Below are positions 35,142 through 39,645 of a DNA stretch of 48,834 bases, piece by piece (the stretch's first letter is position 1; every line of letters starts with the position of its first letter). The stretch spans positions 1 to 48,834 of the forward strand of contig JACDOE010000015.1 in the NCBI GenBank assembly GCA_017656255.1. The letters are read 5' to 3'. The notes under the pieces were generated by a model. It worked only from the letters and a program-made list of their open reading frames with translations. It was not told where the DNA came from and did not search any database. Made by a program: the position numbers and the translations under genes. The DNA comes from Bacillaceae bacterium (GTDB lineage Bacteria; Bacillota; Bacilli; JACDOE01).

Positions 35142-35798
35142 CTAGTACAATTCCAGCAGCTTGTTTTTCTTCGCATAATCAATCAGTTCATGCCGTTCGT
35201 GGATGCCCAGTTTGTTCATAATCTTGCTCTTGTGATTCTCCACCGTTTTGACACTGATGTTGAGTTGCTCGGCGATTTCTTTATTGCGGTAACCCTGAGC
35301 GGTCAGGATCACAATCTCCCGTTCCCGGTCGGTCAGAATTCGATACGCATCTTCCTCTTCCTGGTCCCTTTTTTTCAACATATCCTGAACGATGGATTGA
35401 TCAAGCGAAGTTTCATAGACCTGCTGACCTTCAATCACCCGTTCCATGACTTTAATCAGGGTGGAACCGGAGTCCTGTTTAAGTACATAGCCTTCGGCTC
35501 CCGCCTTGATTACCCGCCATAGATACACACTTTCATCGTACATGGTCAGAATCACAATTTTAATATCCGGATTGATTTTCTTGATTTCTCGGGTGGCCTG
35601 CAAACCGTCCAGCCCCTGCGGCATCGACAGATCCATCAACACCAGGTCCGGTTCCTGCTGGTACACTTTCTGAATCGCTTCTCTTCCGTCACGGGCTTCC
35701 CCGATCACTTGAAAACGGGGATGGGCCTGGACCAGCATGGAGAGTCCCGTCCGTACCACTTCATGATCATCCACAATCAAAATTTTATACGGTTCCAT
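35142..35798 (-). CDS. NarL/LuxR-family response regulator
   Basis: A 218-residue regulator. The receiver domain (1-120) has the acidic pair DD at 10-11 and phospho-acceptor Asp56 in VLMDLSMP; the C-terminal HTH reads LTDREREIVILTAQGYRNKEIAEQLNISVKTVENH. The ATG at 35798 follows AGGAGG and overlaps the kinase gene by 14 bases, so both are co-translated. The targets are unknown; the oxidase operon just upstream is a natural candidate. Confidence 0.9.
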   Translation of the reverse strand: MEPYKILIVDDHEVVRTGLSMLVQAHPRFQVIGEARDGREAIQKVYQQEPDLVLMDLSMPQGLDGLQATREIKKINPDIKIVILTMYDESVYLWRVIKAGAEGYVLKQDSGSTLIKVMERVIEGQQVYETSLDQSIVQDMLKKRDQEEEDAYRILTDREREIVILTAQGYRNKEIAEQLNISVKTVENHKSKIMNKLGIHERHELIDYAKKNKLLELY

Positions 35799-37047
35799 AA
35801 TCCAGATCCTCCTTTAAGGGCACACGGCAAATCACCTGAGTCCCTTCCAGAGCCGATGAATGAATCTGCAATTCACCTTCCAGAAGTTCAGCTCTTTCCC
35901 GCATATGTTTTAATCCCAGTCCCTTCTTATTTTCTTCAAGATCAAAGCCTTTTCCGTTATCCATAATTTTGAGTTCCAGGGTCCGGTCATATTCTCTGAT
36001 CCTGACGGTAATCTGGGTGGCCTCCGCATATTTAGCGGCATTATGCAACGCTTCCTGGACAATCCGATAGAGATGAAGTTCCATATGAGCCGGGTAACGC
36101 TTCTCTTCATCCACTTCCGTTATCAGCACAATCTCTTTTCCCGTCTGATCACGCAGGAATTGAATCAATGTCTGCAGTGAAGGGACCAGCCCCAGCATAT
36201 CCAGGGTGGCCGGACGCAGCTCATAGGAAAGGGTCTTCACTTCTTTCACAACATCCTGCAGGGTTTTCTCCAGCACGGAAAAATGGCGGCCGGTGGTATC
36301 ATCCTTTTTTATTCCCGATTCAATAGCTTTCAGCCCGATGTTAATGCTGTAAAGGGACTGACCGATCCCGTCATGCAGTTCTTGGGCGAGTCGTTTGCGT
36401 TCCGCTTCCTGGGCGGCCAGTGTTTCATGAATCAGGATCTGAGCCAGCTTGGCCCGCTCTTCATTGCGTTTTAATTCGTTGTCCCGCATCACCAGAATCA
36501 TCTGCCGTTTATTTTCTTCCACCTGATCTATAAACGCCGTACTCATCTCGAATGTGCGCTGTTTCTTGCCCCTGTACACGGGCATATCCGCCTCAAAATA
36601 GGCCAGTGCCTCCGGATTGGCCAAAAGACAACGCTCCTCACCCGGAAGGACATCCCGATCCTGACAGTACGAACAGTAAGGGACTTTTTCCCCGACCTTC
36701 CATCCGGTCATGTCTTCCGCCGCTTCATTCATAAATTCAATCGACCGGTCATCATTCATGATCAAAATCCCGTCCTTGACGGCTGCCACAATCGATTCAA
36801 AGCGTTCCTGCTCCTTTTTGACTCTGGAATCAATACGGTTAATGTTGTAGAAAAAGAACATCGCGAGCAGCACGGCACCGCTCAGAATGATCAGCACACG
36901 GAACAGCAGGTCCGCTTCCTTCGATATATTATGAAATTGACTGTAATAGACGTACCACGCGGATTGTACGATAAAAACCAGGATAATGGTTGAAAACATA
37001 ATGGCCCAGTACAGTTGTTGTTTCTTGAAACGTCCCATAATACCCAT
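35785..37047 (-). CDS. NreB-like sensor histidine kinase (PAS, HisKA_3)
   Basis: A 420-residue kinase with two N-terminal membrane helices (about 12-32 and 49-67), a PAS domain (about 80-190), the HisKA_3 phospho-site His225 in LAQELHDGIGQS and a C-terminal ATPase domain. Within the PAS, Cys125, Cys128 and Cys140 fit the C-x2-C-x11-C spacing of the oxygen-sensing [4Fe-4S] site of NreB, but the fourth position (143) is Ala. It may hold a labile or differently ligated cluster, or another redox switch. Located between the oxidase genes and its response regulator. Confidence 0.85.
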   Translation of the reverse strand: MGIMGRFKKQQLYWAIMFSTIILVFIVQSAWYVYYSQFHNISKEADLLFRVLIILSGAVLLAMFFFYNINRIDSRVKKEQERFESIVAAVKDGILIMNDDRSIEFMNEAAEDMTGWKVGEKVPYCSYCQDRDVLPGEERCLLANPEALAYFEADMPVYRGKKQRTFEMSTAFIDQVEENKRQMILVMRDNELKRNEERAKLAQILIHETLAAQEAERKRLAQELHDGIGQSLYSINIGLKAIESGIKKDDTTGRHFSVLEKTLQDVVKEVKTLSYELRPATLDMLGLVPSLQTLIQFLRDQTGKEIVLITEVDEEKRYPAHMELHLYRIVQEALHNAAKYAEATQITVRIREYDRTLELKIMDNGKGFDLEENKKGLGLKHMRERAELLEGELQIHSSALEGTQVICRVPLKEDLDYGTV

Positions 37048-37085
37048 TTCCTTTCCTTGACATTGGGATAACGGATCACGTGAAT

Positions 37086-37120
37086 AAAAACCCCCGGGTA
37101 CTAGTATACCCGGGGTTTTA
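37086..37120 (-). terminator. terminator after the oxidase operon
   Basis: AAAACCCCCGGGTA and TACCCGGGGTTTT form a long GC-rich stem with a short loop, with A- and T-runs on both sides. It ends the oxidase mRNA and separates it from the kinase gene. Confidence 0.85.
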
Positions 37121-37158
37121 CTCTAATCAGGATGAAGAAGGTGTCCTTTTTTTGAATT

Positions 37159-38199
37159 TTATTTCTCCAGCGCCTGTTCCGTCACTTGCTCATCGTGAAC
37201 AGCCTGATTCTCATAGGGGGCCAGATAGGAATCCCGCACCTCATGGCGAAGCCACCCCATCGTGCTCACAACCAGTACTATCAGAACCAGTGCAGAGCGG
37301 AGCCAGATACGGGAATCGCTCCGTTTATATTGATACAGCGAGAAGATGAGCAACAGGGCCAGGATAATACCCACGACCAGTAACCCGGTTTGTAAAGCTG
37401 AACCGCCCAAAAACAGCTGCATCACATCGCCTTTTAAACTGAACAGGAGAATCGGGCCGGCCGCCAGTTGCAAGAATGTAAACAGCAGCGCGACATTTTT
37501 TCCGAAAGAGACAAATAACTCACCGTCCTCCGGATTCTCCCGTTTCTGACGGTTGCCCAACACGATCAGATAAATCCCCATAATCGCCATGGTAGCAAAC
37601 AGAAAATGCAGATAACGTTCCCAGATAGTCGGATAATGGAAGAATGCCGTAAAGATGGACAAGCCTTCTTTCCAGAGTTCGGGTTGAAGCATCGACGCAA
37701 CGCTTGTCAGGAAAACCAGCGGTACATAGAGTAAAAGGAGCGCCCCACCCAGACCGAAGAACAGGTGCAAACCTTTTTTATTCTGCCAGCGTTCCCAGGT
37801 GAACTTGTAAACGTACAACATCAAGAAGGCCACAATGATAATTGCAATGAGCATCAACCATGCTTTTCCGATCAAAATGGTAGACGGATAATAAAAGCGT
37901 GTATAGATAACACTGATAATAAGCAGCGGTGCGACCCCGAGGACAACGGCCAGACTTTTATGGATCGATACCTGTACCGCCAGTTTTTCCGCCAGTCGAT
38001 CCCATCTGGGATTGTTTTTTATCCAGCCGCGCCATTCGTTAAATACGGCCAGTACACTGCCTGCCACGGTCAAGTTTACAAAGAAAATATGCAGGATAAA
38101 ACTGACGACGAGTAGCACCTTGAAGAACCCGATATTCCCCGGAATAGCCAGTTCAAAATCGTTGGGAATCATCGTCTGTGCTGCAAGCAGATTCATCAT
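37159..38199 (-). CDS. bd-superfamily oxidase second subunit (CydA-like paralogue)
   Basis: A 346-residue integral membrane protein with about nine helices. Its N-terminal segment with FILHIFFVNLTVAGSVLAVFNEWRG parallels that of the adjacent heme subunit, including the His and the following Glu, so both subunits derive from a CydA-like ancestor. No heme c motif is present. It overlaps the cytochrome c-bearing gene by four bases (ATGA), indicating stoichiometric synthesis. It should form the partner subunit of a terminal oxidase. Confidence 0.7.
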   Translation of the reverse strand: MMNLLAAQTMIPNDFELAIPGNIGFFKVLLVVSFILHIFFVNLTVAGSVLAVFNEWRGWIKNNPRWDRLAEKLAVQVSIHKSLAVVLGVAPLLIISVIYTRFYYPSTILIGKAWLMLIAIIIVAFLMLYVYKFTWERWQNKKGLHLFFGLGGALLLLYVPLVFLTSVASMLQPELWKEGLSIFTAFFHYPTIWERYLHFLFATMAIMGIYLIVLGNRQKRENPEDGELFVSFGKNVALLFTFLQLAAGPILLFSLKGDVMQLFLGGSALQTGLLVVGIILALLLIFSLYQYKRSDSRIWLRSALVLIVLVVSTMGWLRHEVRDSYLAPYENQAVHDEQVTEQALEK

Positions 38200-39542
38200 T
38201 TGCTTTCACCTGCCATTCCATCTAATTGTTCCGGTGAGTTAACCGCCTTCTCCAGGTAAAGCGCCAGTGCTCTCCGTTCCTCATCCGTTCCGGCAAATGG
38301 CGGCATAAAGTAGCGGGCGGTATGAAGATTCTTGATATAGTTATCCAGACCTTCCGCGGTCATGCCCTCGATTCTTTCACCCAGCGCCCGTTTGCTTCTC
38401 CAGCCATCCACGGTATGACAGGCCAGACACTGACCTTTAAAGATTTCCCTTCCGGCTTCAACCACATTGTCTTCGTTTACTTCATCAACGGCCATCCATT
38501 TGGAATTGGGCAGAAAACCTTCCTTGTTGAACTTCTCTACCTCATCGACGCGAATACCGTTAACATACATATAATCATAGATCACATAGGGCTTCCGAAT
38601 CGTTTCCCGAATCATTTCAAATTCCCCGATCAAGCCAATGGACAGAAATGCGACAAAAGCACTGAGTACGAGCGATACCCGTTTCGGGTTGGTAATCAGG
38701 CGGAATCCCAGGAAGAACATGATCAAAATAGCGAAGAAATGCAACAACCGGAATACCATTTCTTTACCCTGCAACCCGGAGGCCCAGACGATCAGTTCCA
38801 GGGCTTTTTCCGGCAGATTGCTGACGTACCACATACCAAACGCTAACATGAACGGAATGGAGACCATCATCCACTTTCCGAAGTCGCTCAGAATGGTGGC
38901 ACGTGTCTCTTCATTTTTAACAAACCAGCGGATGAACGGACTGAACACCGCCACAGCCAGTGCGATGGCCACAAACGTACGGAAGAACAGAGACGGCAAC
39001 CAGGTCGGGTTGGCTACAGCATCCCAGAAGGAGCGGGTTTCAATCCACTGACCCGGTGTCAGTTGTGCGGCCAGCACCGCCGTAATAATGGTCATGGTCA
39101 GCCAGGAAGCAAAACTGAGCGCCATCCCTGTGCGAATATGCCGCAGTTTTTTCTTCCCTGTCCATTTATCCCAGGTGAAAAAGTAAGTAAGAATTAAAAT
39201 AACTTCAGCGACAAACACAATCCACTCTGTAAACCAGGCCCAGAAAAACACACGCAACAATGATCCGATGGCATTCGGCTGAATCACCATGGTCGAAAAC
39301 CAGATGCCTACCCCGGTCAGCGCTCCGACGGTCGTGGTGATGATCAGAATCCATTTGCTCATTTTTCGGGCAACCTGATCCAGATCAGGCCTGTTCATTT
39401 TCCAGCCCCGATATTCCAACCCCACCATCAGAAGAGAACCCCCGATCGCCACCGCGTGATTGACCAGTACATGCGTGACGGCAATGATGGCAATGACGGT
39501 TCCCGAGCCCAGCCAGGGAAACTCAATAATCGGAAATTGCAT
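38196..39542 (-). CDS. bd-superfamily oxidase subunit I with fused cytochrome c
   Basis: A 448-residue protein. About nine membrane helices are followed by a C-terminal cytochrome c domain with the heme motif CLACH and a later Met ligand in YFMPPF. The His in AVTHVLVNHAVAIGG and the paired Glu in WFTEWIVFVAEV fit heme and proton-channel positions of CydA. The standard quinol loop is not evident. Cytochrome c-fused bd-type reductases (OR-C) have been described, and this looks like one; the electron donor could be quinol or cytochrome c. The ATG at 39542 follows GGGGG. It is the first gene of the operon. Confidence 0.75.
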   Translation of the reverse strand: MQFPIIEFPWLGSGTVIAIIAVTHVLVNHAVAIGGSLLMVGLEYRGWKMNRPDLDQVARKMSKWILIITTTVGALTGVGIWFSTMVIQPNAIGSLLRVFFWAWFTEWIVFVAEVILILTYFFTWDKWTGKKKLRHIRTGMALSFASWLTMTIITAVLAAQLTPGQWIETRSFWDAVANPTWLPSLFFRTFVAIALAVAVFSPFIRWFVKNEETRATILSDFGKWMMVSIPFMLAFGMWYVSNLPEKALELIVWASGLQGKEMVFRLLHFFAILIMFFLGFRLITNPKRVSLVLSAFVAFLSIGLIGEFEMIRETIRKPYVIYDYMYVNGIRVDEVEKFNKEGFLPNSKWMAVDEVNEDNVVEAGREIFKGQCLACHTVDGWRSKRALGERIEGMTAEGLDNYIKNLHTARYFMPPFAGTDEERRALALYLEKAVNSPEQLDGMAGESK

Positions 39543-39645
39543 CGCTATTCCCCCATTTCTTTGCTGTATTCCTTTCGTGTTGCTCCATGTAAACAGTATT
39601 ACAATTTAAAATAGGAAGGTATGGGGGTTTTCACCTATCTGGCTT

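Follow-up and report, generated by a model that had tools for sequence, protein, structure and literature searches.

The locus described here lies in a 48.8 kb stretch of a Bacillaceae genome, called the window below. Its genes are transcribed from the minus strand in the order CydA-like/cytochrome c gene, second membrane subunit, sensor kinase and response regulator, and the following features could be assigned:

35142..35798, minus strand: response regulator, 218 aa, receiver plus LuxR/GerE DNA-binding domain (ORF, Pfam)
35785..37047, minus strand: sensor histidine kinase, 420 aa (ORF; Pfam PAS_8, HisKA_3, HATPase_c)
Kinase residues about 12-30 and 47-65: two N-terminal membrane segments (hydropathy)
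Kinase residues about 80-195: three-Cys PAS domain, ahead of HisKA_3 and HATPase_c
36628..36675, minus strand: PAS motif C125-x2-C128-x11-C140 (position calculated from the ORF)
37092..37115, both strands: intrinsic-terminator-like hairpin between the oxidase operon and the kinase gene
37159..38199, minus strand: second CydA-like membrane subunit, 346 aa (PF01654 at 3.2e-5, under the cut-off)
38196..39542, minus strand: CydA-like oxidase subunit, 448 aa, with a C-terminal cytochrome c domain (Pfam PF13442, Cytochrome_CBB3, 5.5e-9)
39621..39638, no strand assigned: candidate NreC-box-like operator ATGGGGGTTTTCACCTAT, 79 bp upstream of the oxidase ATG

A preliminary description had confined the system to 35785-39542, an interval that contains the kinase and oxidase genes but not the regulator, a LuxR/NarL-type protein whose ORF overlaps the end of the kinase gene. 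The same description had the kinase and regulator genes directly following the oxidase operon. They do adjoin it on the same strand; however, the intervening hairpin is strong, with T-runs after it on either strand, and this two-way terminator-like element makes it unlikely that the kinase and regulator genes merely form the tail of the oxidase operon.

The adjacent oxidase is indeed a cytochrome c-fused enzyme of the bd type, as had been proposed: besides the PF13442 domain, the profiles of the larger and of the second subunit matched 5doq_A (Geobacillus bd oxidase subunit I) at 2e-9 and 9.8e-6, respectively, and a canonical CydA query matched the larger subunit at 7e-7. By CydA homology, both subunits thus belong to the cytochrome bd superfamily. 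A CxxCH at residues 372-376 and Met413 are conserved in the larger subunit, and in nearly all relatives the gene for the second subunit adjoins that for the cytochrome c-fused one. Where CydA-like pairs have no quinol site, cytochrome c is the presumed electron donor (OR-N type; PMC10839748). Judging from what PMC10839748 cites of Murali et al. 2021, the window oxidase resembles the CydAA'/OR-N and OR-C branch in its CydA-like subunits and presumed cytochrome c donor, and differs in that its larger subunit carries a fused cytochrome c domain.

A three-cysteine form of the NreB PAS domain

The kinase ORF reads ...VPYCSYCQDRDVLPGEERCLLANP..., with Cys125, Cys128, Cys140 and Ala143, a CxxC of the form C125-S-Y-C128 and spacings of x2 and x11, exactly as previously noted. 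The protein had been taken for an NreB that lacks its fourth ligand. A profile search with the window PAS domain brought up relatives across many Bacillota: of the 399 genomes sampled from the class, 64 encode one or more three-Cys members, and 299 genomes in the order that contains Anoxybacillus supplied others. (A profile search of genome contigs favoured the kinase over the PAS motifs; it returned few three-Cys members and yielded controls.) Conservation was counted on an HMM alignment of 92 distinct PAS sequences, equivalent to 39 clusters at 70% identity. Cys125, Cys128 and Cys140 were all kept in 92/92, so the motif does not reflect chance. Arg131 was nearly as constant (91/92), and position 143 held I, A, M, L, T or V, but in 0/92 sequences a Cys.

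Both MAFFT and hhalign aligned Cys140 with the fourth Cys of four-Cys NreB, a Cys that precedes an aromatic or aliphatic residue. The canonical third Cys fell in or beside a three-residue gap of the window family with both programs, and opposite Glu137 in the hhalign alignment. These alignments suggest that, compared with Staphylococcus NreB, it is the third ligand that is missing, the apparent loss of the fourth probably arising from an ungapped comparison. Given how the cysteines align and how well they are conserved, the window kinase represents a separate three-Cys form and not an NreB in which one ligand has decayed. It shares with Staphylococcus carnosus NreB a CxxC-bearing PAS domain, a HisKA_3 kinase and a LuxR-type regulator. 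The S. carnosus protein, however, uses four Cys as ligands of an oxygen-sensing [4Fe-4S] cluster and has NreA as a partner, whereas the window kinase lacks the third of these Cys and has a loop shorter by three residues.

With C-x2-C-x11-C in its PAS domain and no fourth Cys, the window kinase is a member of the three-Cys NreB family, and over their whole length both kinase and regulator group there; the closest relatives of the regulator adjoin other three-Cys kinases (50.9% to those of L189/L190). Its two N-terminal membrane segments mark it as a variant, since hydropathy predicts such segments in just 3 or 4 of 62 family members. In an AlphaFold prediction (pLDDT 80), the window PAS domain was PAS-like; the Foldseek matches listed for it comprised general PAS folds only, and not 9wex. 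The conserved axial histidine of heme PAS sensors is missing from the family: no His column exceeded 45% in the 92 PAS sequences.

Sulfide genes, bd oxidases and the Bacillus licheniformis relative

The best solved relative of the window PAS domain is 9wex_A. The three-Cys PAS domain of Bacillus licheniformis NreB (locus L280, plasmid pBL141-1) is identical to 9wex in the readable stretches, and by this comparison 9wex appears to match it. The gene was read in two frames because it is broken in that record (L280:12133-13209), where frameshifts split it into two annotated ORFs. It adjoins TusA, TauE, SQR (sulfide:quinone reductase) and PDO (persulfide dioxygenase) genes, a layout equal to that of the cluster studied in PMC9918477. 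In that work, the sole functional paper found, B. licheniformis NreB was published as an H2S sensor: NreBC responds to sulfide, transcription responded to 5-20 uM sulfide and not to equally low elemental sulfur, and phosphorylated NreC bound the nreC-sqr region. The sensing mechanism was left open there, with heme as a suggestion, and the paper mentions neither the three cysteines nor a link to an oxidase.

The window system and B. licheniformis NreB/NreC have in common the three-Cys PAS domain (C-x2-C-x11-C), the HisKA_3 kinase, the NreC-type regulator and an operator family. They differ in that the B. licheniformis target is sqr-pdo, with no oxidase, and in the two N-terminal membrane segments of the window kinase.

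A sulfide-related setting is frequent in the family at large. A tblastn survey within 7 kb of 62 three-Cys kinase loci found SQR near 42, PDO near 37, rhodanese near 32, CydA near 19, CydB near 15 (a further type near 5) and TauE near 17; the corresponding figure for each gene was 0 or 1 among 61 control loci of other kinases, which came from many phyla and were unmatched by genome. The 62 loci include two that are double-listed under different names, count the window's own genome twice and comprise related genomes that are not independent. Counted per genus (n = 35), SQR occurred in 25, PDO in 23 and a bd-type oxidase in 18, with at least one of the three in 32/35. The sqr/pdo neighbourhood is frequent rather than strict, and neither gene was found within the window.

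The same genome encodes a second three-Cys kinase (L163) elsewhere. It faces canonical cydAB, behind which lies an SQR-like gene, and operator-like boxes of the kind described below occur at that place; the genome also holds a PDO (61% identity) and a second canonical cydA. Canonical cydAB adjoins three-Cys kinases in Anoxybacillus, Siminovitchia, Mesobacillus and Solibacillus as well. In all these loci the same kind of kinase stands beside a bd-type oxidase, but the enzyme is a quinol-type CydAB and not the cytochrome c-fused pair.

These neighbourhoods bear on the earlier proposal that the pair senses oxygen or redox state. In that case, the PAS domain would hold an oxygen-labile Fe-S cluster bound by the three Cys and, for instance, Glu137, and the oxidase would be induced at low oxygen. 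bd-type oxidases are frequently low-oxygen enzymes, the homology to four-Cys NreB PAS domains is clear (hhalign 99.3%), and Glu137, opposite the missing third Cys, is present in 80/92 family members. However, the other 12 members carry different residues there, the family neighbours are SQR, PDO, sulfurtransferases and TauE rather than nitrate respiration genes, and the sole tested member responds to sulfide (PMC9918477). Because that member senses sulfide, and because the genes around the family are those of sulfide oxidation and cytochrome bd, oxygen sensing by this kinase is less likely and not the best reading; we regard the Fe-S version of it as quite improbable.

The nature of the signal could also differ from sulfide itself. 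A sulfide-derived or thiol-reactive species (persulfide, polysulfide or nitric oxide) might modify the cysteines without any metal, with the oxidase still the target. Strict invariance is limited to the three Cys, no PAS histidine is conserved, and CstR and probably YrkD act through cysteine persulfide or polysulfide bridges (PMC9918477). On the other hand, the C-x2-C-x11-C spacing looks like that of a metal site, and B. licheniformis transcription, which responded to 5-20 uM sulfide, did not respond to elemental sulfur at these low concentrations. We consider this alternative rather unlikely.

A candidate operator and a proposed sulfide-responsive circuit

A blind dyad search of intergenic DNA found TAGGG-N6-CCCTA in 17/62 three-Cys kinase loci and in 0 controls, and related dyad words combine into a family operator, ATAGGGGN4CCCCTAT (a scan for the literal motif TAGGGN4CCCTA gave little above chance). 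From these a matrix was made that excluded both the window and L163. Its top score in the B. licheniformis locus (21.6 bits) lies between nreC and sqr, in the NreC-bound region. Operator sites near family kinases mostly precede SQR and, next, CydA, TauE and PDO.

In the whole window, the top match of the matrix is 39621-39638 (16.4 bits), in front of the oxidase gene, where control DNA leads one to expect 0.002 such sites per 240 bp. This predicted NreC-type operator at the target promoter is imperfect, deviating at 2 of 14 consensus positions. Judging from the candidate site, a regulatory link from the pair to the oxidase, which had been suggested before, is likely. The box is not a general trait of this oxidase, for within 300 bp of 16 other copies, all away from three-Cys kinases, no site scored more than 4.5 bits.

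The oxidase was found in 17/399 genomes, 14 of which also encode a three-Cys kinase (Fisher p 9e-10, kinship ignored). The two genes adjoin each other in the window genome only, so the pairing itself is without comparative support; accordingly, when kinases neighbouring this oxidase were sought for alignment, as the preliminary description had advised, no other three-Cys kinase was among them, the oxidase lying elsewhere or beside a PAS-less kinase. The two closest oxidase relatives stand beside a divergent pair of PAS-less kinase and LuxR-type regulator (L223:1817-3309 and L224:8862-10362), the kinase having two membrane segments. An origin of the window kinase as a chimera of such an oxidase-linked PAS-less kinase was rejected, since its kinase domain and regulator match the three-Cys family far better.

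If the adjacency were accidental, the sulfide sensor would govern sulfide genes elsewhere in the genome. This would fit with the oxidase adjoining no such kinase in any other genome, with the terminator-like hairpin and with a box that overlaps a distant PDO gene (G000:C2:128780), an exact box following 8 kb further. Yet the top box of the window sits at the oxidase promoter, and oxidase boxes are missing in genomes without the adjacency, which makes a fortuitous arrangement quite unlikely in our estimation.

We think it probable that the kinase, as an NreB-type sensor anchored in the membrane, detects sulfide and activates the neighbouring, presumably sulfide-tolerant oxidase. This reading builds on features taken from sequence, namely family membership, the invariant Cys, the neighbouring sulfide and bd-oxidase genes of the family and the place of the operator, and on the sulfide response and NreC binding published for B. 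licheniformis NreBC. The pair would be a sulfide-responsive two-component system of the three-cysteine NreB family. The effect of sulfide would be mediated by the three invariant Cys of the cytoplasmic PAS domain, which may form a metal or Fe-S site or react directly as thiols; the kinase would then phosphorylate the LuxR-type regulator, which is predicted to bind the ATAGGGGN4CCCCTAT-like box at 39621-39638 and to turn on the cytochrome c-fused CydA-like oxidase. The oxidase, in turn, would sustain respiration while sulfide poisons heme-copper oxidases. The bd oxidases of E. coli resist sulfide and keep cells respiring (PMC4815019), and by analogy the window oxidase presumably tolerates it too, although such resistance is known from quinol bd oxidases and not from cytochrome c-linked CydA-like pairs.

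Taken more broadly, and more tentatively, it is possible that the three-Cys PAS kinases, a large Bacillota family, are dedicated to sulfide sensing and couple sulfide detoxification to a terminal oxidase switch, which the window would extend to a cytochrome c-fused oxidase and a membrane sensor; the sulfide-responsive three-Cys (plus Glu) centre would then be new, and kin to oxygen-sensing Fe-S PAS domains. The three invariant Cys, together with the lack of a conserved histidine, indicate a testable sensing site in a domain for which a structure (9wex) exists and for which PMC9918477 suggested heme. From the conserved neighbourhood and the operator one would predict that in many Bacillota the choice of terminal oxidase is reprogrammed directly by sulfide, a connection absent from that paper.

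Some further boxes deserve mention. In the window's own genome, the overall box count is weak when taken alone (43, compared with 30 when the pattern is reversed). The sole exact operator there (G000:C2:138354-138371; L245:10355) is flanked by a 577-aa gene and a periplasmic-binding-protein-like gene, with no sulfide gene adjoining, and a 22.1-bit operator (G000:C1:952103; L246:6104) has a membrane protein gene on one side and a peroxiredoxin-like gene on the other. Finally, a second dyad, ATACC-N6-GGTAT (TATACCCN4GGGTATA), which resembles CstR/YrkD-type operators, was present in 14/62 loci and 0 controls, the loci being the intergenic regions of L163-L222 and the named loci.
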